Under the pieces are notes generated by a model. It saw nothing but the letters and a program-made list of their open reading frames with translations, was not told the DNA's origin and did not search any database. A stretch of DNA of 64,000 bases from the NCBI RefSeq assembly GCF_036173065.1, contig NZ_CP108041.1, positions 2,669,001 to 2,733,000 on the forward strand, given 5' to 3'. The position numbers and the translations under genes are program-made. Source of the stretch: Rhodococcus sp. NBC_00297. GTDB taxonomy: Bacteria; Actinomycetota; Actinomycetes; Mycobacteriales; Mycobacteriaceae. The number at the start of each line of letters is the position of its first letter. The stretch's first letter is position 1. Below are positions 26,880 to 39,238 of this stretch, in pieces.

Positions 26880-27596
26880 GTGCAGTGCGACGACCGAGTT
26901 CCGGTGATCCCGACCCTCCCCGACGCGCATCCGCTGGACGATCCCATCCGATCGTCCCTCGTCGGCGCCCACTCCCGGTTCGCCGAATGGCGGGGCCGGA
27001 TCGCGCGTTACCACCCCGAGGTGGCCGGGTTCTTCGGTCACCCCGAGGACATGACGGCGGAGGACTGGGCGGATCTCGGCGCCCTGCTCCCGGTGGGTGA
27101 GCAGGCTGCACTGCGGGGCGACGGCATCACCCCGCCCGCCGGGTGGCGCGTTCTCGACCGGATCGGGCTGCTGCAGTTCGACGGATCCGCGCTGGTGGTG
27201 GAGCCGGAACCGGCCGCGCAGGTGCTCACCGCCGACGACGTGCCGGAGATGCTCGATCTCGTGCACCGCACCCGGCCGGGACCGTTCCGCTCGCGGACCA
27301 TCGAGATGGGCACGTACCTGGGCGTCCGGGACGGGTCGCGGCTCGTCGCCATGGCCGGGGAGCGCATGCATCCCGACGGCTGGACCGAGATCAGCGCCGT
27401 GTGCACCGACCCCGAGTACCGAGGGCAGGGCCTGGCCACCCGCCTCATCCGCGCTGTCGGGTACGGCATCCGGGAGCGGGGCGAGGTGCCGTTCCTGCAC
27501 ACGAGTGTGACCAACACCCGCGCCGTCGCGCTCTACGACACCCTCGGATTCGTGCTCCGCCGACAGACCACCCTGACGATCGCCGAGGTCGCCTGA
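26880..27596 (+). CDS. GNAT-family N-acetyltransferase
   Basis: The 238-residue acetyl-CoA-dependent acyltransferase has the GNAT core in its C-terminal half: MAGERMHPDGWTEISAVCTDPEYRGQGLATRLIRAV holds the acetyl-CoA pyrophosphate loop RGQGLA, and SVTNTRAVALYDTLGFVLRRQ ends the fold. The N-terminal about 100 residues (DDPIRSSLVGAHSRFAEW...) are less conserved and typical of FR47-like proteins. The stop overlaps the start of the Eis-like gene by one base (TGATG). The substrate is unknown. Confidence 0.88.
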   Translation: MQCDDRVPVIPTLPDAHPLDDPIRSSLVGAHSRFAEWRGRIARYHPEVAGFFGHPEDMTAEDWADLGALLPVGEQAALRGDGITPPAGWRVLDRIGLLQFDGSALVVEPEPAAQVLTADDVPEMLDLVHRTRPGPFRSRTIEMGTYLGVRDGSRLVAMAGERMHPDGWTEISAVCTDPEYRGQGLATRLIRAVGYGIRERGEVPFLHTSVTNTRAVALYDTLGFVLRRQTTLTIAEVA

Positions 27597-28795
27597 TGGT
27601 CGACATCCGCATTCTCGAGTCGCGGTCCGACCTGCTGGAATCGCAGCGCGTCTTCCGTGCCGCGATGGTGGGACTGCCCACGCTGCAGGTCACCGAGGAC
27701 GAGATCGCGAGTCTGCGCGAGCCCGGTCGGACCTACGGCGCCTTCGACGGCGATCGACTTGTCGGGACCACCGATTCGGCCCGCGGAACCCTGACGCTGC
27801 CGGGCGGCGCTCGGGTTCCCCACCTGGCCGTCACCCATGTCGGGGTGTTGCCGACCCACACCCGCCGCGGTGTCGTGTCCGCTCTGCTGCGGCGCCAGCT
27901 GCGGGACGCGCGCGATGCCGGGGACGTCGTCGCCTCGCTCCGTGCGTCGGAGGCTGTCATCTACGGCCGCTACGGCTACGGCGTCGCCACCTCGTCCGTG
28001 TCCGCCGAGGTCGTCACCGCGCGTGCGTCGGTGCGGGAGGAGGCCGTGTCCAGCGGCACCGTCCGCCTCGTCGACGACGGGGACGTGTTCGACGTGCAGG
28101 CCGGCATCGTCGCGTCGCACCCGTCGAGTCGACCGGGCACCATCACCCGACTGCCCGTCTGGTGGAACGCGTCGAGGCTGCGCGGGCGGACCGACACCGG
28201 TCCGGTGTGGAACGCGGTGCACTCCACCGGCGGGGTCGACGACGGATACGTCCGGTACCGCCCGCGCGACCCGCGGACGTGGTGGTCCGGGAACGACCGC
28301 CGGGTGGTCGTCGAGGACCTCCATGCGCCCGACGACGCGGTGTTCGCCGACCTGGTCCGCTTCCTCCTGCGACTCGACCTCGTCGACCGCATCACGTTTC
28401 CCGCACTGCCCGTCGACACCGTGCTGCCACTGCTGATGCACGATCGCCGATCCGTACGACTCGATCGCACCGAGGACGAGACCTGGCTGCGCATCCTCGA
28501 CGTGTCCGCGGCACTGTCCGCGCGCACGTACGGGCCCGGGGACGCTGTGACCATCGCCGTGCAGGACCAGGACCTGCCGGAGAACGCCGGGACCTACGCC
28601 GTCGCACCGGACGGCGTGCGGGTGGTCGACGCGGCGCCGGATCTGACGGTGCACGTCCGAGATCTGGCGTCGGTGCTGCTCGGCGGGACGTCGTGGGCGG
28701 CCCTGGTCACCGCCGGTCTCGCGGAGGGTGAGGCATCGGCTGCCGACGAGCTGTTCCGGACTCCGCAGGCCCCCTTCGCCGGAGTGGGCTTCTGA
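27596..28795 (+). CDS. eis: Eis-type N-acetyltransferase
   Basis: The 399-residue enhanced-intracellular-survival family acetyltransferase has tandem GNAT folds plus an SCP-like C-terminal domain. Mycobacterial Eis acetylates aminoglycosides and lysines at several amines and forms hexamers. Visible are the acetyl-CoA motif HVGVLPTHTRRGVVSALLRRQ, the general-base region EAVIYGRYGYGVAT with the conserved Tyr, and a free C-terminal Phe (FAGVGF), whose carboxylate is catalytic in Eis. Length matches Eis (about 400-410). The start ATG overlaps the preceding GNAT stop. Aminoglycoside activity of this copy is not established. Confidence 0.88.
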   Translation: MVDIRILESRSDLLESQRVFRAAMVGLPTLQVTEDEIASLREPGRTYGAFDGDRLVGTTDSARGTLTLPGGARVPHLAVTHVGVLPTHTRRGVVSALLRRQLRDARDAGDVVASLRASEAVIYGRYGYGVATSSVSAEVVTARASVREEAVSSGTVRLVDDGDVFDVQAGIVASHPSSRPGTITRLPVWWNASRLRGRTDTGPVWNAVHSTGGVDDGYVRYRPRDPRTWWSGNDRRVVVEDLHAPDDAVFADLVRFLLRLDLVDRITFPALPVDTVLPLLMHDRRSVRLDRTEDETWLRILDVSAALSARTYGPGDAVTIAVQDQDLPENAGTYAVAPDGVRVVDAAPDLTVHVRDLASVLLGGTSWAALVTAGLAEGEASAADELFRTPQAPFAGVGF

Positions 28796-29269: not shown

Positions 29270-29453
29270 CGGCTGAGATTATCAAGATGACCGCCCGGTT
29301 TATTCGCAATCCGAACACGCCCGGGCTTCGATTCGAGGCGCCACTGAGCGCAGCGGAGCACTGTCGTCGAGTGAGTTCATAACGAACAGGTGGCGAAGCA
29401 TTCCCCTCCGATCTCTGCGATTCCAACCCGTGTGCCGGGTGCGGATCCCTCCT

Positions 29454-29459
29454 AACCTC
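29454..29459 (+). promoter_or_regulatory. Putative -10 of the monooxygenase operon
   Basis: TAACCT lies 32 bp before the first ATG of the five-gene operon, which has a GGGAG ribosome-binding site. Further upstream, GTTCATAACGAAC (29375-29387) is an imperfect dyad. No -35 is convincing. The rest of 29270-29491 shows nothing else. Confidence 0.3.
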
Positions 29460-29491
29460 GGGTGTCCGGGGGCGATACGAGGGAGCGCACG

Positions 29492-30403
29492 ATGACCAGG
29501 ACGGTGACACTCGGCTTCGACGTCGGGGTCGGTTCGGCCGACGGACGAGCCGTGGCCGCCACGGTGACCGCGGCCGAGAACGCAGGATTCGGCTACGTCA
29601 CGTTCGACGACGACGACGTGGCGACGGGTGGTGTCGACGCCGTCACGCGCGCGGCCTTCGTCGCCGCGACCACCAGCACGGTGGGCCTCGTCGCCACCGC
29701 CAGCACCACCTACGCGGAACCGTTCCACCTCTCGTCGCAGCTCGCGTCGTTGGACTACGCGTCCCGCGGCCGGGCGGGTTGGGTGGCATCCCGGTCGCTG
29801 GCACCCGACGTCGCGGCAGCATGGGGTCGCGAAGTCGTCTCGGCCGATACCGATCTGGTTCGTGAACAGCGTGATTCGGTGACCGTGGCGCGTGGACTGT
29901 GGGACTCGTGGGAGGACGACGCGGTGATCCGCGACTTCCCGACGGGCCGGTTCCTGAACCAGCAGAAGCTGCACTACGTCGACTTCGTCGGGGAGGAGTA
30001 CTCGGTGAAGGGCCCCGCGATCGTGCCTCGCCCGCCGCAGGGTCAGGTGGTGGTGTTCGGCCGATTCGGCGAGATCGACGCCGATCTGCTCGACGTCGTC
30101 CTCGTGGAGAACGAAGCGGACGCGCGCGCGGTGACCGGGGCGCACGTCGTTCTCGACGTCGAGGCCCCCGGAAGCCCGACGGCCGCAGCGGCTCTCGTCG
30201 AGCGCATTGCTGCCCTCGACGACGCGATCGGCGGGATCAGGTTGCGTCCTGACCTGATCGACGACGATCTCCGCGTCGCCGCACGCTACGTCCTTCCTCA
30301 ACTGTTCGAGCGGGACCTGGCCCATCGGCCGGTCCCGGCCACGACGCTGCGTTCCACTCTGGGCCTGGCCCGCCCGGTCAACCGATTCGAGGCTGCGCGA
30401 TGA
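29492..30403 (+). CDS. Short luciferase-like flavin monooxygenase
   Basis: The 303-residue luciferase-like (LLM) TIM-barrel protein resembles the NtaA/SnaA/DszA group: TVGLVATASTTYAEPFHLSSQLASLDYASRGRAGWVASRS is its clearest stretch. It is about 100-150 residues shorter than full members and the C-terminal half is divergent, so it may be a non-catalytic partner or bind an unusual flavin. GGGAG precedes ATG 29492. It is the first gene of a five-gene run in which every junction is a 4-bp overlap. Members of this group oxygenate sulfonates, sulfones or chelators with FMNH2, or use F420. The substrate is unknown. Confidence 0.8.
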   Translation: MTRTVTLGFDVGVGSADGRAVAATVTAAENAGFGYVTFDDDDVATGGVDAVTRAAFVAATTSTVGLVATASTTYAEPFHLSSQLASLDYASRGRAGWVASRSLAPDVAAAWGREVVSADTDLVREQRDSVTVARGLWDSWEDDAVIRDFPTGRFLNQQKLHYVDFVGEEYSVKGPAIVPRPPQGQVVVFGRFGEIDADLLDVVLVENEADARAVTGAHVVLDVEAPGSPTAAAALVERIAALDDAIGGIRLRPDLIDDDLRVAARYVLPQLFERDLAHRPVPATTLRSTLGLARPVNRFEAAR

Positions 30404-31710
30404 CCGCTCTCTTCCGTCCCGACGCCACCGTCCACCTGGGTGTCTTCTACCAGGGCGTCAACCACACGACGATCTGGTCGGACCCGGCCAGTGGCTCGCA
30501 GATCGACTTCGAGACGTTCCGTCGGCTGATCACGACCGCCGAGCGCGGACTGTTCGACGCCTTCTTCCTCGGTGAGGGGCTCCGACTGCGCGAGCAGGGC
30601 GGCAAGATCCTCGACCTGGACATCGCCGGTCGTCCCGACGCCATCACACAGTTGGCGGCGCTCGCCGGCATCACCACGAACATCGGACTGGTGGCCACCC
30701 AGAACACCACCTACAACGAACCGGTGGACCTCGCGCGTCGACTGTCGGGACTGGACGTGCTGTCCGGTGGTCGCGCCGGCTGGAACGTCGTCACGACCGA
30801 CAACGCGTGGACCGGCGAGAACTTCCGACGCGGCGGCTACCTCGACCACGCGGACCGCTACGTGCGCGCCGGAGAGTTCCTCGACGTCGCCAGAGCCCTG
30901 TGGAACGCAGGAGGCACGCCCGACTCCGTGCGCATCCAGTCCTCGCAGTTCGACATCGCCTCTGCTGCACCGATTCCCCGCAGTCCGCAGGACCACCCGG
31001 TGATCTTCCAGGCGGGAGATTCCAGCACCGGTCGCGACTTCGCCGCCCAGCACGCCGACGTGATCTTCTCCGCGCACGGCACCCACTTCGACGACGCACT
31101 CGACTTCGCGAACGACATCCGCGCGCGACTCGTGGCCCGAGGGAGACCGGACGACGACATCAAGATCCTGCCCGGCACCCAGATCGTCCTCGCGGACCAC
31201 GAGCGGGACGTGGACGAGAAGGTGCGCTGGGTCAAGGAGGGTCAGTTCACCGGCCCGACGACGCTGTCGATCGCCGGCCAGGTGTGGGGGCGCGATCTGT
31301 CCGATCGTGATCCCGACGGACCACTCCCCACCGAGGATCCGATCGTCAGTGGCGTCGTCGGTGCTCGTGGCTCGGCGTTCAACGGCATCGATGTGGATGC
31401 ACGCGTGCGGGAATGGCGGTCGCTCGCCGAGGCGAAGAACCTGTCGCTGCGGCAGGTCGTCATCGAGACGTCGGCGCGTACCGGATTCGCGGGTACGCCG
31501 AGCCAGGTCGCGGACGAGCTCACCCGGTGGGTCCGCGGAGGGGCGAGCGACGGCTTCAACATCACGCCGTACCTCGTGCCGAGCGGGCTCGACGACATCG
31601 TCGACAAGCTGGTTCCCGAACTGCAGGAACGTGGTTCGTACCCAGCCGCCTACGGGGGGTCGACCTTGCGGGAGCACCTCGGACTACGTCGACCCAGCAT
31701 CGGCGAGTGA
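30400..31710 (+). CDS. NtaA/SnaA/DszA-type flavin-dependent monooxygenase
   Basis: The 436-residue LLM monooxygenase has the family hallmarks FRRLITTAERGLFDAFFLGEG, IGLVATQNTTYNEPVDLARRLSGLDVLSGGRAGWNVVTTDN and HPVIFQAGDSSTGRDFAAQHADVIFS. Its length (about 440-450) matches DszA/NtaA enzymes, which use FMNH2 from a separate reductase to oxygenate substrates such as dibenzothiophene sulfone or nitrilotriacetate. The ATGA overlap couples it to the gene before. No flavin reductase is in this operon, so a chromosomal one must serve. Which compound is attacked cannot be read from the sequence. Confidence 0.9.
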   Translation: MTALFRPDATVHLGVFYQGVNHTTIWSDPASGSQIDFETFRRLITTAERGLFDAFFLGEGLRLREQGGKILDLDIAGRPDAITQLAALAGITTNIGLVATQNTTYNEPVDLARRLSGLDVLSGGRAGWNVVTTDNAWTGENFRRGGYLDHADRYVRAGEFLDVARALWNAGGTPDSVRIQSSQFDIASAAPIPRSPQDHPVIFQAGDSSTGRDFAAQHADVIFSAHGTHFDDALDFANDIRARLVARGRPDDDIKILPGTQIVLADHERDVDEKVRWVKEGQFTGPTTLSIAGQVWGRDLSDRDPDGPLPTEDPIVSGVVGARGSAFNGIDVDARVREWRSLAEAKNLSLRQVVIETSARTGFAGTPSQVADELTRWVRGGASDGFNITPYLVPSGLDDIVDKLVPELQERGSYPAAYGGSTLREHLGLRRPSIGE

Positions 31711-32834
31711 GATTCCACTGGTTCCTCCCCACCGGGGGTGACGACGAGAGGCTCGGTGCGCGCTCGCACGGAGTCGCCATCGGCGGTGGGGGCGCCTCGG
31801 CAGCGGGTGCGGGACATCGGGACGCGACACTCGACTACCTGACCGAATTGGCCGTGACCGTCGAGGAACTCGGTTTCGAGGCAGTGCTCACTCCGACGGG
31901 CGGACACTGCGAGGACGCGTGGTTGGTCACCGCGGCGCTGATCCCGGCGACCACTCGTCTGAAGTTCCTGGTGGCGTTCCGGCCGGGCCAGGTCTCGCCC
32001 GTGACGTCGGCGCAGATGGTCAGTACATTCCATCGACTGTCCGGTGGCCGAGTGCTCCTCAACGTGGTGGTCGGGGGCGACGACGTCGAGCAGCGGTCCT
32101 ACGGCGACCGTCTGGCGAAGGAGGGCCGCTACGCGCGGGCGGGTGAGTTCCTCGGCATCGCGCGCGCCGTCTCCGACGGCCGGCCGGTGCGGCCGTCCGG
32201 CGACCACTACGCTGTGGACCGACCGAACGGCGGCGGTTTCGGCGGGCATCCTCCGGTGCCGCTTCCCGACGTCTATCTCGGCGGATCATCGGACGCCGCA
32301 CTGGATGTCGCCGCCGAGCATGCCGACGTCTTTCTCACGTGGGGCGAGTCTCCCGAGGCGGTGGCCGAGAAGATCTCCCACGTGCGGGAGCGTGCGGCTG
32401 CCCGCGGCCGCACCCTGCGTGCCGGACTGCGGATGCACGTGATCACCCGCGAGCGCGCGAAAGATGCGTGGGCTCGAGCCGAGGACCTGATCGCCGATGT
32501 CGACGACGCGACCGTCCGGACCCGACAGGCACAACTGGGCGCCGTGGGATCGGAAGGCCAGCGACGCATGCTGGCGTTGCACGGCGGTGATCGTCGGAAC
32601 CTGGTGGTGGGCCCCAACCTGTGGGCGGGCATCGGTCTCGTCCGCGGCGGCGCCGGCACCGCGCTGGTCGGCAGCCACGACGAGGTGGTGGCCCGCATCG
32701 AGGAGTATCGCGAGGCAGGTGTCGACGAGATCATTTTGTCGGGGTACCCCCATCTCGAGGAGGCACGTCACGTCGGCGCCGGTGTCCTCGGCAGAATCGC
32801 ATCGTCACCGTCCGAGAAGGAGTACGCATCATGA
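31707..32834 (+). CDS. Alkanesulfonate monooxygenase-like (SsuD family)
   Basis: The 375-residue LLM monooxygenase is of the SsuD type, which releases sulfite from alkanesulfonates with FMNH2 and O2. Motifs include FHWFLPTGGD at the N-terminus, AVLTPTGGHCEDAWLVTAALIPATTRLKFLVAFRPGQVSPV (a TGxxxED segment typical of SsuD), FHRLSGGRVLLNVVVGGD, and YLGGSSDAALDVAAEHADVFLTWGE. GTG 31707 overlaps the previous stop (GTGA). No ssuABC transporter or SsuE reductase is adjacent, unlike typical ssu operons, so I leave the gene symbol blank. Confidence 0.88.
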   Translation: MRFHWFLPTGGDDERLGARSHGVAIGGGGASAAGAGHRDATLDYLTELAVTVEELGFEAVLTPTGGHCEDAWLVTAALIPATTRLKFLVAFRPGQVSPVTSAQMVSTFHRLSGGRVLLNVVVGGDDVEQRSYGDRLAKEGRYARAGEFLGIARAVSDGRPVRPSGDHYAVDRPNGGGFGGHPPVPLPDVYLGGSSDAALDVAAEHADVFLTWGESPEAVAEKISHVRERAAARGRTLRAGLRMHVITRERAKDAWARAEDLIADVDDATVRTRQAQLGAVGSEGQRRMLALHGGDRRNLVVGPNLWAGIGLVRGGAGTALVGSHDEVVARIEEYREAGVDEIILSGYPHLEEARHVGAGVLGRIASSPSEKEYAS

Positions 32835-33625
32835 CAACATCCGTCACCACGTTCGAGCAGGACTGGGCTGCATGGCATTCCGATCGCGAGGAGTACTTCC
32901 GCGATCCGTTGGGCTGGGTCGCGCTCACAGGTCTGTACTGGCTGACCGAGACCGACGCGGCCGTGGGGGATCTGCCCGGTGTGTGGCGCGCCGACGACGA
33001 CGCTCTGCACGTCACCGCGAGCACGGGCGACGGGTTGTCGGTCGACGGGGTGGTCGTGGACGGGACTGTCGCTCTGCACCCTGTCGAGGGGGCTCCCGGC
33101 CTCCTCGTGGCCGCCGGTGAGCGGCGCGTCGAGGTGATTCGCCGCACCGGCTCGGTGGCCCTGCGCGTGCACGACCCCGCGGCCCCCACCTTGGCGTCGT
33201 TCGGCGGGATCCCCACCTTCGCACCCGACGAGAAGTGGCGCGTGAGTGGCACGTTCACGCCGTACGACTCCGAGCGCACGGTCACCACCGCGGCCGTCGT
33301 CGAGGGTCTGGAGCACCACCACGCCGGGCTGGGCGTCATCGACTTCACGCTCGGGAACGCACCGCAACAGTTCGTCGCATTCCGAGGGAAGGCGGGCGGC
33401 TTCCACATCCTCTTCACCGACGAGACCAGCGGCGTGAGCACCTACCCCGCGTGCCGGTCCCTCGCCGTCGGCGATGCGGACGCCGACGGCCTGGTGACAC
33501 TGGACTTCAACCGCGCGTCCAACCTGCCGTGCGCCCTCACCGACTACGCGACGTGCCCGGTGGCACCTCCCGAGAACCGGCTGACCGTCGCGGTGGAGGC
33601 CGGCGAGAAGCTTCCGATCAGGTGA
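32831..33625 (+). CDS. DUF1684 domain protein
   Basis: The 264-residue soluble protein matches the DUF1684 pattern. It starts FEQDWAAWHSDREEYFRDPLGWVALTGLYWL and has FGGIPTFAPDEKWRVSGTF in the middle. The signature tail is VTLDFNRASNLPCALTDYATCPVAPPENRLTVAVEAGEK; the consensus FNrAYNP is FNRASNL here. The family is widespread, possibly a beta-rich hydrolase or binding fold, with no established function. It is coupled by ATGA to the SsuD-like gene and by GTGA to the oxygenase, so it is likely an accessory of the same pathway. Confidence 0.85.
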   Translation: MTTSVTTFEQDWAAWHSDREEYFRDPLGWVALTGLYWLTETDAAVGDLPGVWRADDDALHVTASTGDGLSVDGVVVDGTVALHPVEGAPGLLVAAGERRVEVIRRTGSVALRVHDPAAPTLASFGGIPTFAPDEKWRVSGTFTPYDSERTVTTAAVVEGLEHHHAGLGVIDFTLGNAPQQFVAFRGKAGGFHILFTDETSGVSTYPACRSLAVGDADADGLVTLDFNRASNLPCALTDYATCPVAPPENRLTVAVEAGEKLPIR

Positions 33626-34593
33626 CAGCTCTGCCCGTTCTCGACATGTCGACCGCGGATGTCGACGGGTTTCGCTCGGCAGTGCGCGAGGCCACCCACG
33701 ACCACGGCTTCTTCCACCTGACCGGTCATGGTGTCGACCCCGAGCTCGTGTCGACGGTCCTGTCGCTGGCGCGCACCTTTTTCGCGCTGCCGGCGGACGC
33801 CAAGGACGAGATCAGTCAACTGAACTCGCCCCAGTTCCGCGGCTACAGTCGGCTCGGCGGCGAGCTGACCAACGGCGCCGTCGATTGGCGAGAGCAGATC
33901 GACATCGGTCCGGAGCGCGAGGTGATTCCCGCGGCGCAGGGATACTGGAACCTGCAGGGCCCCAACCAGTGGCCGTCCGCGCTACCCGAACTGCGTCCCG
34001 CGTTCGAGGCCTGGGACGCCGCCCTGTCGGACGTCGGGCTGCGGCTGCTCCGACACTGGGCAGTCTCCCTCGGCGCGGCCGAGGACACATTCGATGCCGC
34101 CTTCGCCGAGCTCCCCGCGACGTTGATCAAGGTGGTGCGGTATCCCGGCAGCACCGAGAACCCGCAGGGGGTGGGCGCGCACAAGGACTCGGGGGTGCTG
34201 ACGTTGCTTCTCGTGGAGCCGGAGTCGACCGGCTTGCAGGTGGAGCTGCGCGGCGGCGAGTGGATCGACGTACCGCCCGTGGCCGGCGCGTTCATCGTCA
34301 ACGTCGGGGAACTGCTCGAGGTCGCGACGGGTGGGTACCTGCGTGCCACTCGGCATCGCGTCCTCGCGCCGACGCCTGGCACGGACCGGGTGTCCGTTCC
34401 CTACTTCCTCAGCCCCGCACTGGATGCGCGCGTGCCGCTCATCGATCTTCCACCCGAGTTGGCGGCGCGGTCCCGGGGCGTCGACACTGATCCGGACAAC
34501 CCCCTCTTCCGGACCTACGGCGAGAACGCGTGGAAATCGCGTACCCGTGCACACCCGGACGTGGCCGAGAAGCACCACGGCATCAGGCGCTGA
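33622..34593 (+). CDS. 2OG-Fe(II) oxygenase, isopenicillin-N-synthase-like
   Basis: The 323-residue non-haem iron dioxygenase has the metal triad H187-x-D189 (GAHKDSG) and H245 (RATRHRV), and the 2-oxoglutarate-anchoring R256-x-S258 (DRVSVPYF). The N-terminal DIOX_N part reads HDHGFFHLTGHGVDPEL. Such enzymes hydroxylate, desaturate or cleave small molecules using O2 and 2-oxoglutarate. GTG 33622 overlaps the DUF1684 stop. It closes the operon and its stop overlaps the convergent ComB-like gene by 11 bp. It is not a TauD/alkylsulfatase-type enzyme, so its place in sulfur salvage is uncertain. Confidence 0.9.
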   Translation: MTALPVLDMSTADVDGFRSAVREATHDHGFFHLTGHGVDPELVSTVLSLARTFFALPADAKDEISQLNSPQFRGYSRLGGELTNGAVDWREQIDIGPEREVIPAAQGYWNLQGPNQWPSALPELRPAFEAWDAALSDVGLRLLRHWAVSLGAAEDTFDAAFAELPATLIKVVRYPGSTENPQGVGAHKDSGVLTLLLVEPESTGLQVELRGGEWIDVPPVAGAFIVNVGELLEVATGGYLRATRHRVLAPTPGTDRVSVPYFLSPALDARVPLIDLPPELAARSRGVDTDPDNPLFRTYGENAWKSRTRAHPDVAEKHHGIRR

Positions 34594-36089: not shown

Positions 36090-37436
36090 ATGAACGACAC
36101 GGTAGAGCTGCACCCACCGTCGGTGGACGAGATACGGCTGTTCACAGCGCGTTTGGGGCTGGTGGAGGACGGCGGGTCGGCGCGGGAAGGAATCGATGCC
36201 GTGACGGCCATCGAAGCCCTGAAGAGCGTGGGCGCGGCGACGCAGGCGGTAGTGACCGCCGGGGTGGCGGCGAGCGTTCGAGCCGATCGGCGTGATCGCG
36301 GGCTGCCGAGGAAGCAGTGGGATCTCGGGATCGCGTCGCAGGTGGGTCTGGCACGTCGCGAGTCACACCGGCGTGGTGGCACATACCTCGGACTCGCACG
36401 GGCACTGGTGCACGAGATGCCGTACACCCTGCAGTCGATGCGCGAAGGCCGCCTGAGCGAGTACCGCGCGATGCTGCTGGTGCGGGAGACGGCGCACCTC
36501 ACCGTGGCGGACCGGCGGGAGGTCGATCGCCGGTTGTGCGCCGACGCCTCGACGTTGGAAGGGAAGGGCGACAAGCAGGTGGTCGCGCTCGCGGTGGCCG
36601 CGGCGGTCGAGCTCGATGCCGCGGCCGTGGCGCGGAGGAACGCGCGTGCGGCTGCGCAGCGCCGCGTGAGCGTGCGTCCGGCTCCGGATTTCATGGGATA
36701 CGCGACGGCGCTGCTGCCGATGGACAAGGCGGTGTGCGTGTACGCCACGTTGCGCCGAGACGCGGACGCGCTCGTCGCAGCCGGCCGTGCCGAGGGTCGA
36801 ACGCGTGATCAGGTGATGGCGGACCTGTTGTTCGAGCGCGTGACCGGGGGAGATGCAGCGGCGGGTCCCCCGGTGGCCGTGCAGCTGGTCATGTCCGACG
36901 AGTCGTTGCTCGCCGGCGGTGACGAGGCCGCGCACGTTCCCGGCTACGGCATGGTTCCCGCCGAAGTGGCCCGCCGTGCGGTGGCCGACCGCATCGACGG
37001 CGGGAGTGTCGGTGCGACCCTGCGGCGGCTCTACGCCGTCCCGTCGACGGGACAGCTCACGGCGATGGACTCGACGGCGCGTGTGTTCCCGGCGGGACTC
37101 GGTCACTACATCGACGTCCGCGACCGGACGTGCCGCACACCGTGGTGCGATGCGCCGATCCGACACCACGACCACATACGCCCCTTCAGGTTCGGTGGCC
37201 CGACGACGGCGGAGAACGGCATGGGACTGTGCGCCGCCTGCAATTACGCGAAGGACGCGGAGGGGTGGGAGGCCCAGCGGGTCGTCGAGCACGTCGACGG
37301 CGGCCACATCGTCAGATTCCGGACGCCGACGGGCCACACCTACGACTCGGCTCCGCCGGCAGTACCGTTGCCGCTTCCCACCACGATGGTGGAGACGCAG
37401 CTGTACGAGCTGCTCGTTCAGCGTCGAGCCGGGTGA
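36090..37436 (+). CDS. DUF222/HNH endonuclease domain protein (13E12-type)
   Basis: The 448-residue protein has the helical DUF222 region (about 15-300) and a C-terminal HNH nuclease fold: CRTPWCDAPIRHHDHIRPFRFGGPTTAENGMGLCAACNYAK, with two CxxC-type zinc pairs and the HxH/N catalytic residues. This family (mycobacterial REP13E12-like) is highly repeated in actinobacteria and often tied to mobile or recombinogenic regions, though its role is unclear. A GGGGGGAG ribosome-binding site lies 5 nt before ATG 36090. The C-terminus overlaps the convergent FAD-protein gene by 19 bp. Confidence 0.88.
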   Translation: MNDTVELHPPSVDEIRLFTARLGLVEDGGSAREGIDAVTAIEALKSVGAATQAVVTAGVAASVRADRRDRGLPRKQWDLGIASQVGLARRESHRRGGTYLGLARALVHEMPYTLQSMREGRLSEYRAMLLVRETAHLTVADRREVDRRLCADASTLEGKGDKQVVALAVAAAVELDAAAVARRNARAAAQRRVSVRPAPDFMGYATALLPMDKAVCVYATLRRDADALVAAGRAEGRTRDQVMADLLFERVTGGDAAAGPPVAVQLVMSDESLLAGGDEAAHVPGYGMVPAEVARRAVADRIDGGSVGATLRRLYAVPSTGQLTAMDSTARVFPAGLGHYIDVRDRTCRTPWCDAPIRHHDHIRPFRFGGPTTAENGMGLCAACNYAKDAEGWEAQRVVEHVDGGHIVRFRTPTGHTYDSAPPAVPLPLPTTMVETQLYELLVQRRAG

Positions 37437-39238
37437 GACACAGCACGGTGGCCGGCCACGAGATCCGCGGCGATCGCGTCGTTGTGCCGGAAGAAGCCGG
37501 CGTCGATGCCGGGCCGGGCGAAGGCGCCGGACCAGGCGTGGCCCGCCACCCACATTCCCACCGCGTACCGATGGGGGTGCGCCGTGCCCGATGCGTCGAT
37601 CACGCGGGACGAGCCGTCGACGGCCAGTTTGGCCGGACTCGTCGGAGACGCACTCACCTCGCGGACCTCACCGCGCTCGTGCAGCGATCGCAGCAGGGCG
37701 TCGGCGCTGCGCGAGATGGACGCTCTGGGCAGTCGGGCTTCGATGAGCGTCCGCGCTCGCACCACGTCGTGGTGCACGTGCGAGGTCGCCCGGAAGCCGT
37801 CACCGTCCGCCTCGAACCGCACCTCGGGGCCGAGGTAGCGAATGACTCCGGCGCGGCCGAGTGCGAGCAGCTGCTCCAGGCGCTCGGGCGGGGGACCGCT
37901 CGCGAGGAAGCTGAAGAAGGAATGCAGCTGTCCCTCCACCTGCGACGCGACGTCGTCCGGGCGCAGTCGCTCTGTCCGAACGAGCTCTCCCACAGTCCGA
38001 TACACCGACAGCAGGGCCGAGAACACGGCGGCGTCCGCGCTGAAGCGGGGGTCGCGCCGTCGTGCCAGGTCTGCCTCGATGTAGCGGTGCACCTGCTCTG
38101 CGGCATCGGCCGCTGAGTCGAATCGGGCGTGCCGCAGCGGTCGGTCGAGCGTGTCGATGTCGAAGTGGTCCTCGGGATCGGGGACCATTCGTTCGACCAG
38201 TTCACCGACTGCACGGGCGCCGTCACGGCCCAGGGCGGCCTCGAGTTCGATGAACGGCCCGCGGACACGGTCGGGGTGGGAGCGGAACAGCTCGTGATAG
38301 TGCGCCCACGCAAGTTCCGCGACCGCGAGAGGCCAGACCGCCGTACGGAAGTCGAGCGTCTCCGTCCCGGGAAAAGCCTCGGGTACGAAGAACCTCGGGA
38401 GAGGCGGTGCCGCATCGGCGATGGAGTACGAGATCTTGGCGTGATACGGAACCCCGCGTCGAGATCCGGCGTACACCAGGGATTCCCGGCCGGAGGCCGT
38501 GTACACCAGGGTGCCGTCACCGGAGCGCGAGAAGGTGCCGCCGCGTGACTCCGCGAGCAGCACCATCCAGTCCACGAAGGCGAGACCGAGGCCCGAGATC
38601 AGGACGGGTTCGGCCTCGGGAACCAGCGCCGGGTCGAGGTCGGCTGTGTATCCCGGCCCGATGTACCGGAGACCGTGGGTCTCGGCATGGGCGGCGAATG
38701 CCTGGACGTCTGCCGGCGGCAGAGTGTCGGGTTGGCCCTGCGCCAGAACGACATCGGTCACCTCGAGCACGGTGCCGTCGTCGAGGATCAGACGCTGGTG
38801 GACACCCCGATCCTCGATGTCGACGACGCAGGCCCGGTGCACGTGCACTCGAACACGATCCGGCCGCGCCTTCACCGCGCTCTCGAAGACGTGAGCGAGA
38901 TAGAGGGACTGCAGCGACCGGGACGCGAACGACGACGGGGTGAAACGGAGAACCTCCTCCCGCAGAGCCGGATCCGTGACGAGGGTGTCCCGGTTCGCCG
39001 TCACCCACTCCGCGAGGGTGGGACCGCCCGACCCGTCGGGCAGCATGGCCACGTCCGCCGCGACGGAGTTCATCCACAGCAGGGGGTCCTGGTTCCGTCG
39101 CCAGATCCGCCCTGCACCCGGCGGGTGGGGGTCGACGACATGGACGTCGATCGGTTCGGTCAGCTCGTCGGCCCGGCCGACGATCCGCTCGAGGATGCCG
39201 GTCGCGCGGGGTCCTCCGCCCACGAACGCGATGCTCAC
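37418..39238 (-). CDS. FAD/NAD(P)-binding protein (large, HI0933/lysine-N6-oxygenase-like fold)
   Basis: The 606-residue protein begins with a Rossmann dinucleotide site VSIAFVGGGPRATGILERIV, followed by VHVVDPHPPGAGRIWRRNQDPLLWMNSVAAD. A second glycine-rich strand (EPVLISGLGLAFVDWMVLLAE) and a DVVLAQGQPDTLP segment are typical of FAD_NAD_binding proteins of this size in actinobacteria. GTG 39238 is chosen because the Rossmann strand begins immediately; 18 extra residues upstream have no pattern. There is no membrane segment. It is probably a flavin oxidoreductase, but reaction and partners are unknown. It diverges from fgd. Confidence 0.82.
   Translation of the reverse strand: MSIAFVGGGPRATGILERIVGRADELTEPIDVHVVDPHPPGAGRIWRRNQDPLLWMNSVAADVAMLPDGSGGPTLAEWVTANRDTLVTDPALREEVLRFTPSSFASRSLQSLYLAHVFESAVKARPDRVRVHVHRACVVDIEDRGVHQRLILDDGTVLEVTDVVLAQGQPDTLPPADVQAFAAHAETHGLRYIGPGYTADLDPALVPEAEPVLISGLGLAFVDWMVLLAESRGGTFSRSGDGTLVYTASGRESLVYAGSRRGVPYHAKISYSIADAAPPLPRFFVPEAFPGTETLDFRTAVWPLAVAELAWAHYHELFRSHPDRVRGPFIELEAALGRDGARAVGELVERMVPDPEDHFDIDTLDRPLRHARFDSAADAAEQVHRYIEADLARRRDPRFSADAAVFSALLSVYRTVGELVRTERLRPDDVASQVEGQLHSFFSFLASGPPPERLEQLLALGRAGVIRYLGPEVRFEADGDGFRATSHVHHDVVRARTLIEARLPRASISRSADALLRSLHERGEVREVSASPTSPAKLAVDGSSRVIDASGTAHPHRYAVGMWVAGHAWSGAFARPGIDAGFFRHNDAIAADLVAGHRAVSHPARR

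Follow-up and report, generated by a model that had tools for sequence, protein, structure and literature searches.

Five overlapping genes of Rhodococcus sp. NBC_00297 form a probable sulfur-scavenging oxygenase module that derives from a larger operon. The genes, g1 to g5, lie at positions 29492-34593 of the 64,000-nucleotide stretch of DNA that we analyzed (the window; contig NZ_CP108041.1, positions 2,669,001 to 2,733,000). We consider it likely that they represent the oxygenase part of an operon with which Rhodococcus (Rhodococcoides group) scavenges sulfur, and whose importer and GNAT genes have been separated from them in the lineage of the window. Their most likely role is the cleavage of C-S bonds under sulfur starvation, dependent on reduced flavin mononucleotide (FMNH2) and on 2-oxoglutarate (2OG). 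A role in organosulfur use is indicated by the depletion of Met and Cys in the proteins, by the S-adenosylmethionine (SAM) riboswitch and the Cys-rich leader on the split-off importers, and by the SsuD type of g3. The same evidence supports the proposal, made earlier from the letters of the DNA (the sequence-only reading), of an organosulfur salvage route combining flavin and iron oxygenases. That reading had also called the run its best candidate for a new system; the run is not free-standing, but neither it nor its parent operon was found described in our literature searches, which covered open-licence papers only and in which DUF1684 turned up in one paper.

All five genes are on the plus strand. 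g1 (29492-30403; ATG start; 303 residues) encodes a shortened NtaA-type luciferase-like protein of the Bac_luciferase family, whose top NCBIfam model, TIGR03860, is matched with 146.3 bits, under the cut-off of 279.7. g2 (30400-31710; ATG start; 436 residues) encodes an NtaA-type FMNH2 monooxygenase and is a member of TIGR03860 (NtaA/DmoA FMN monooxygenases; 332.6 bits vs the same curated cut-off). g3 (31707-32834; GTG start; 375 residues) encodes an SsuD-like FMNH2 monooxygenase. The product of g4 (32831-33625; ATG start; 264 residues) is a DUF1684 protein (PF07920; 137.6 bits vs a gathering cut-off of 25), in which the domain is preceded by about 120 additional N-terminal residues and which has a Cx7C pair (C234, C242). 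The product of g5 (33622-34593; GTG start; 323 residues) is an isopenicillin-N-synthase-like 2OG/Fe(II) oxygenase with DIOX_N (107 bits) and 2OG-FeII_Oxy (75.9 bits) domains, both over cut-off. HxD...H and RxS motifs are visible in it by eye. Gene calls and profile scans hence agree with the genes, coordinates and families first proposed. The statement that no transporter, flavin reductase or regulator accompanies the genes is correct for the five-gene run, but ABC importers are encoded elsewhere in the genome. The run is indeed neither a standard ssu operon, as the ssuABC importer and the SsuE reductase are absent from it and its immediate neighbors, nor a standard dsz operon, as it holds no gene of the DszB type or of the DszC (acyl-CoA dehydrogenase) type and DszA is a more distant relative of g2.

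The five proteins are nearly devoid of sulfur amino acids. After the start residue, g1 and g2 contain no Met or Cys in 302 and 435 residues, while g3, g4 and g5 contain 4 in 374, 3 in 263 and 1 in 322, respectively. Pooled, this amounts to 8 in 1692 residues, or 0.47% (counted from the gene caller's slightly later g1 start), vs 2.31% for the remaining window genes that encode 150 residues or more (n = 50); the minimum among the 47 other five-gene runs of the window is 1.07%. At the pooled window rate, the binomial probability of 8 or fewer is 1.4e-9. The luciferase-like monooxygenase (LLM) fold does not force this depletion, since Met/Cys is 3.5% in fgd of the window and 1.4% in a paralogue of NtaA (1.37 Mb), two LLM controls from the same genome. 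Homologues of g5 located elsewhere average 0.26% (20 proteins). Oxygenases of Gordonia NB4-1Y that are upregulated on organic sulfur average 0.88-1.33% Met/Cys vs 3.01% for the proteome (PMC7661421). Among the proteins that R. qingshengii IGTS8 upregulates on dibenzothiophene are two with the annotation "nitrilotriacetate monooxygenase component A" (PMC8557817); they could not be matched to individual genes of the operon described here.

The origin of the run became apparent from the loci of g4 homologues, which were found in 22 of 37 genus genomes, 108 of 301 sampled family genomes and 62 of 121 sampled order genomes. In 25 of 38 fetched loci the homologue lies within the order SBP5-permease-permease-ATPase-LLM(c1)-NtaA-LLM(g2')-DUF1684-LLM(c2), where SBP denotes a substrate-binding protein and gene families were assigned on genome G154. 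Among the named loci, i.e., the best 80 of 590, c2 directly follows the DUF1684 gene in 54, g2' directly precedes it in 43, and SBP5 lies at most eight genes upstream in 48. Of 14 genus genomes, 9 carry the pair g1-g2 upstream of this second importer, and 7 of these have g3 there as well; the remaining 5 lack g1-g3 at this place. The upstream order reads [perm3-ATP3-SBP3-DAO-GNAT-(LLM)]-g1-g2-(MFS)-g3-SBP5 onward, MFS having been identified on two genomes and DAO on one. The whole parent operon thus comprises two ABC importers, one of the amino-acid/cystine and one of the dipeptide/opine type, a GNAT, two LLM pairs, an SsuD-like enzyme, a DUF1684 protein and a further LLM. In the tree, g2 of the window falls inside the clade of g2-position proteins (support 100/97), separate from g2'. 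The parent-operon proteins are as depleted as those of the run (Met/Cys of 0.05% in c1, 0.08% in c2 and 0.59% in the SBP). In G154, c2 is succeeded by a copy of g5, beyond which lie another NtaA-type LLM gene and genes for a TauE/SafE exporter and an ADH. An SfnB-like gene adjoins g5 in both loci tested, scoring 388 and 401 bits against a cut-off of 430.9; next to a further g5 copy lies a gene for a LysR regulator.

The exact five-gene order occurs in three genomes only, namely the window's genome, the conspecific G131 and G135 (Rhodococcus sp. Leaf247), which are also the only 3 of 22 genus loci to hold g3-g4-g5 together. A g3 before and a g5 after the DUF1684 gene were found in one of the 80 named loci, that of Leaf247. 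A search for the gene set beyond close strains, as had been suggested, thus fails for the exact set and succeeds for its parts, which recur in the larger operon. Homologues of g5 are present in 204 of 301 family genomes, mostly away from such a run; G067 and G121, which lack g4, carry a lone g5 copy at the corresponding place, flanked by the Eis-like gene and DUF998. Two origins are hence conceivable for g5: it may derive from the large operon (compare G154) or have been resident at the site (compare G067 and G121). The restricted distribution of the exact order and the scattering of g5 would fit a chance neighborhood of unrelated oxygenases with no shared task. We reject this as the principal explanation and deem it very improbable because relatives have g1-g2-g3 and g4 within a single operon; moreover, g5 follows that same operon in G154, all four junctions of the run overlap and Met/Cys depletion is common to the five proteins.

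As regards the recent history of the run, fourfold third-position identity to Rhodococcus sp. Leaf247 is 79% for g1 and 87% for g2 vs 34-62% for 12 neighboring genes that include g3, g4 and g5. From this difference, it seems that g1 and g2 (window 29492-31710) were swapped together in a recent exchange.

The missing importers are encoded about 1.8 Mb from the oxygenases (0.88 vs 2.70 Mb). The block at C1:0.884-0.892 Mb reads perm3-ATP3-SBP3-GNAT-SBP5-permease-permease-ATPase, with no LLM gene alongside, and its SBP5-permease-permease-ATPase part is 87-93% identical to the counterparts in the parent operon of G154. G131 and G135 carry the same block. A strong SBP5 match (at least 70% identity) was obtained in exactly the 22 genus genomes that carry DUF1684 and in none of the 15 others. 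The distance between SBP5 and DUF1684 is 6.6-7.6 kb in 19 of the 22; in the other three, which are the three with the five-gene run, the two genes are on different contigs or 1.8 Mb apart. The run in the window is flanked by metZ/HAD and fgd-pta-ackA, and the parent operon adjoins metZ/HAD or fgd-pta-ackA in several relatives, so the oxygenase site of the window is probably the ancestral place of the operon. The split in three genomes represents a natural experiment on operon break-up.

Each junction of the run is a 4-bp overlap, as first noted (g1/g2 ATGA, g2/g3 GTGA, g3/g4 ATGA, g4/g5 GTGA). Strict coupling had been taken to suggest fixed stoichiometry or a complex, but fixed stoichiometry does not follow, because such gaps are ordinary among tight same-strand pairs. 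A gap of exactly -4 is found in 4 of 31 co-directional window pairs outside the operon. It occurs in 671 of 2197 co-directional pairs (30.5%) of 191 related loci, which include the window and its two kin, overlap in part and have gene starts from our own simple caller. Among the 1313 pairs of those loci with a gap below 30, 51% are at -4, and runs of at least four consecutive -4 junctions occur in 20 of the 191 loci. We therefore rejected overlaps as a sign of a complex; a complex is predicted only for g1-g2, from features described below.

Candidate elements for control by sulfur were found on the importer side. A SAM riboswitch (RF00162) precedes the importer operon of the window's genome (54.2 bits vs a gathering score of 44.4), and all seven loci of a first search yielded matches over the gathering score. 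Of these ten matches, five stand before perm3, four before SBP5 and one before a GNAT-LLM-g1-g2-g3 run in G153. In a second set of seven named loci, the riboswitch precedes SBP5 in three (R. erythropolis, R. wratislaviensis and R. jostii), and none was found in Nocardia miyunensis, two mycobacteria or the oxygenase half of Leaf247. Short Cys-rich open reading frames (ORFs) follow the riboswitch, MNTVTTRRPHVLRLHLEWCRVCCCACTRR in the importer leader of the window's genome and HVDLCRLTGSIC and similar ones in relatives. A search by pattern identified such ORFs in 16 of the 48 SBP5-bearing named loci, all of them Rhodococcus. Mycobacteria are known to have leader ORFs that respond to cysteine (Canestrari 2020, as cited in PMC9094748). 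In the importer leader of the window's genome (L236, upstream of 16300, minus strand), riboswitch and Cys-rich ORF stand in tandem, and a 16-bp palindrome, GACGTCTCGAGACGTC, lies between TTGACG and TACATT hexamers that look promoter-like by eye.

Upstream of g1, a candidate control box, TGCGATTCCAACCCGTGTG (29416-29434, plus strand), has a similar counterpart in Leaf247, and a TAACCT -10-like hexamer (29453-29458, plus strand) lies downstream of it. A possible 21-codon leader ORF with a GTG start and two Cys codons (29430-29495, plus strand) ends in the ATGA of g1, and its length and stop are the same in the Leaf247 locus. Box and ORF are weak candidates, each seen in three sequences of which two are from one species, and the ORF would lie upstream of the transcription start if the hexamer is the -10 element. 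A GCGATT box precedes both g1 and the importer operon of the same genome; it is weak because it is missing from all 21 other upstream regions listed. A shared palindromic operator was also considered and rejected: the CAGCGA-TCGCTG repeat precedes the importers in some genomes but not g1, where the best match, 7 of 12 positions, was equaled by every shuffle.

An alternative to organosulfur use is the salvage of C-N compounds, aminopolycarboxylates or metallophores such as nitrilotriacetate, ethylenediaminetetraacetate or opines, with dipeptide-type import and removal of glyoxylate by an NtaA-type enzyme. The membership of g2 in the NtaA family is in keeping with it, as are the matches of the importer SBP to NikA (182 bits) and to the staphylopine binder CntA (124 bits), all under cut-offs. 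Nevertheless, the Met/Cys depletion, the SAM riboswitch, the Cys leader, the SsuD-like g3, and the TauE/SafE and SfnB-like neighbors in relatives all point to sulfur, and we regard this alternative as unlikely.

The features of g1 and g2 suggest that they work as a pair. Among solved structures, g1 matches NtfO1 (7e36_A) over its full length, and the best relative of g2 is NtfO2 (7e36_B). The second-best is YtnJ, presumably the same protein as CmoJ. In the alignment, g1 retains the side-loop tail stretch DSWEDDAV..GRFLNQQKLH and lacks about 110 lid columns, while g2 has the lid and lacks the tail. Seven of eight FMN-site residues of NtfO2 are identical in g2, A58 being replaced by Gly, and at the columns of g2 H150, Y154 and Q204 g1 has D, V and G. 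The pair thus shows the sequence hallmarks of an NtfO1/NtfO2-type heterodimer, in which g1 is predicted to be the FMN-less partner and g2 the catalytic subunit; a similar pair seems to be formed by c1 and g2'. This would extend heterodimeric flavin monooxygenases beyond antibiotic biosynthesis. By analogy with NtfO1/NtfO2 (StmO1/StmO2), the run might also be a tailoring cassette for a secondary metabolite, in line with the structural kinship just described. That seems highly doubtful, as no polyketide synthase or nonribosomal peptide synthetase family was found among the window proteins scanned (a part of the window genes) or the labelled neighbors, and as the parts occur widely and are Met/Cys-depleted.

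g3 aligns nearly full length with 7jv3 (E 3.6e-102). Its only Cys falls on that of the CEDAW stretch in Escherichia coli SsuD, and it keeps the RxH, LVRGG and SGYPHLEEA stretches, PTHGD being changed to PTGGD; we assume that the CEDAW Cys and the kept stretches are catalytic or active-site elements of SsuD. In an alignment of 57 DUF1684 relatives of g4, C242 is present in 57 and C234 in 50; in 47 of them, Met is absent beyond the start. The persistence of the Cx7C pair in proteins that have otherwise lost their sulfur speaks for a function of the pair. More generally, the depletion resembles a natural mutational scan, in which the leftover Cys residues (the single Cys of g3, the Cx7C pair of g4) are probably indispensable. 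DUF1684 thereby gains a testable context, that of a Met-free, two-Cys protein in sulfur-starvation operons.

The genome contains five FMN_red matches, none of which adjoins the operon; three of the five places were inspected (L237, L238 and L240). One of them is a lone NADPH-dependent FMN reductase gene at 4.12 Mb (L237:9242-9802, plus strand; 186 residues, no Met/Cys after the start), whose product is, at a guess, a candidate supplier of FMNH2. In related LLM-DUF1684 clusters, a fusion of an SsuE-type FMN reductase with a GNAT was observed (L054:14614-15735, minus strand, and similar; cluster c19), the SsuE part of which scores 182 bits, over the cut-off of 164.

Several observations weigh against an oxygenase half of a sulfur-scavenging operon. 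Low Met/Cys is not confined to the run: 16 of the 50 other window genes are below 1.3%, and so are 39% of the 347 further genes counted in related loci, a set that still includes other genes of these operons. Three other window genes have no Met/Cys at all, although they are short (157-229 residues) and none reaches 290 residues. The Fisher probability for the co-occurrence of importer and DUF1684, 1e-10, ignores kinship. No SAM riboswitch or other Rfam match up to E 0.5 was found at 22-46 kb of the window, which leaves joint control of the halves hypothetical. The top model of g3, SsuD (TIGR03565), is matched with 402.1 bits and its equivalog cut-off of 518.2 is missed; DUF1684 genes lack LLM neighbors in several loci; and the g5 tree is weakly resolved.

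In the scheme that we infer for the induction, the substrate, the order of the steps and the role of DUF1684, a fall in SAM and cysteine would lead to expression of the importer operon through its riboswitch and Cys-rich leader, and the importers would bring in an organosulfur compound. The g2 protein, as a heterodimer with the FMN-less g1, would use FMNH2 to oxygenate the substrate beside the sulfur and open the C-S bond. The SsuD-like g3 would release sulfite from a sulfonate, and g5 would carry out a 2OG/Fe(II)-dependent oxidation at a carbon beside a heteroatom. g4 would assist as a thiol protein, perhaps handling sulfenate or disulfide intermediates through its two conserved Cys. The FMNH2 would be supplied by a reductase encoded elsewhere, e.g., the Met/Cys-free one at 4.12 Mb.

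A narrower form of this proposal, which we put forward tentatively, is the salvage of S-substituted, mercapturate-like cysteine conjugates, as by the cmo and yxe/scm systems of Bacillus, in which a cystine-type ABC transporter takes up the compound, a GNAT N-acetylates it and an NtaA-type LLM cleaves the C-S bond. It agrees with the relation of g2 to YtnJ and with the presence of a cystine-like SBP3 importer and a GNAT in both the parent operon and the importer operon of the window's genome. The NtaA-type enzymes YxeK and CmoJ cleave C-S bonds of cysteine conjugates (PMC9706529 and PMC10863075). On the other hand, such a route has no place for g3 or g5, the best solved relative of g2 is a polyketide hydroxylase rather than a cysteine-conjugate enzyme, and no deacetylase is among the labelled operon genes, although no search aimed at deacetylases was made. 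Whichever the substrate, oxygenases for C-S cleavage under sulfur starvation would offer concrete gene pairs for organosulfur breakdown in Rhodococcus, including that of sulfonated pollutants.

A ComB-like gene (PF04029; 34583-35314, minus strand; 0.4% Met/Cys) and an Eis-like GNAT gene (27596-28795, plus strand; 0.5%) flank the run and may be members of the same sulfur-starvation set. Farther downstream, a minus-strand gene (37418-39238) encodes a 606-residue FAD-NAD(P)-binding protein (PF13454), homologues of which adjoin LLM-DUF1684 clusters in several genomes.

We see about even chances that the whole is an undescribed actinobacterial system, consisting of an operon with a riboswitch and a Cys leader, two importers, two paralogous heterodimeric monooxygenases, an SsuD-like enzyme and a DUF1684 protein that handles thiols in C-S cleavage, the halves of which are separated yet co-functioning here, with g5 joined to the oxygenases. 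Several of the parts have known counterparts. The NtfO1-NtfO2/StmO1-StmO2 hydroxylase (PDB 7e36; PMC8027225) likewise combines a lid-less short LLM with a tail-less full NtaA-type LLM, encoded by overlapping genes, but it hydroxylates a polyketide, whereas the context of g1-g2 is sulfur and their complex is predicted from sequence. g3 aligns nearly end to end with SsuD/MsuD (1nqk, 7jv3) and keeps their conserved stretches; it differs in scoring under the equivalog cut-off and in having no SsuE or SsuABC in cis. Bacillus YtnJ/CmoJ and YxeK share with the parent operon an NtaA-type LLM, a cystine-type ABC importer and a GNAT. In contrast to these cysteine-conjugate systems, Rhodococcus has two LLM pairs with a shortened subunit, an SsuD-like enzyme, a DUF1684 protein and a 2OG oxygenase, and the window's genome has importer and GNAT at another locus than the LLMs. 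The ssu/seu genes of Corynebacterium glutamicum, compared from their description in PMC1779776, likewise form a sulfur-regulated operon in an actinobacterium and include an SsuD along with several FMN monooxygenases; C. glutamicum has a PF07920 match. Finally, the DUF1684 protein HVO_1043 of Haloferax volcanii has the same Cx7C pair as g4 and is a candidate for a thiol relay (PMC9426492, in the excerpt consulted); it is archaeal, that excerpt reports no LLM operon for it, and g4 differs from it by its N-terminal extension.

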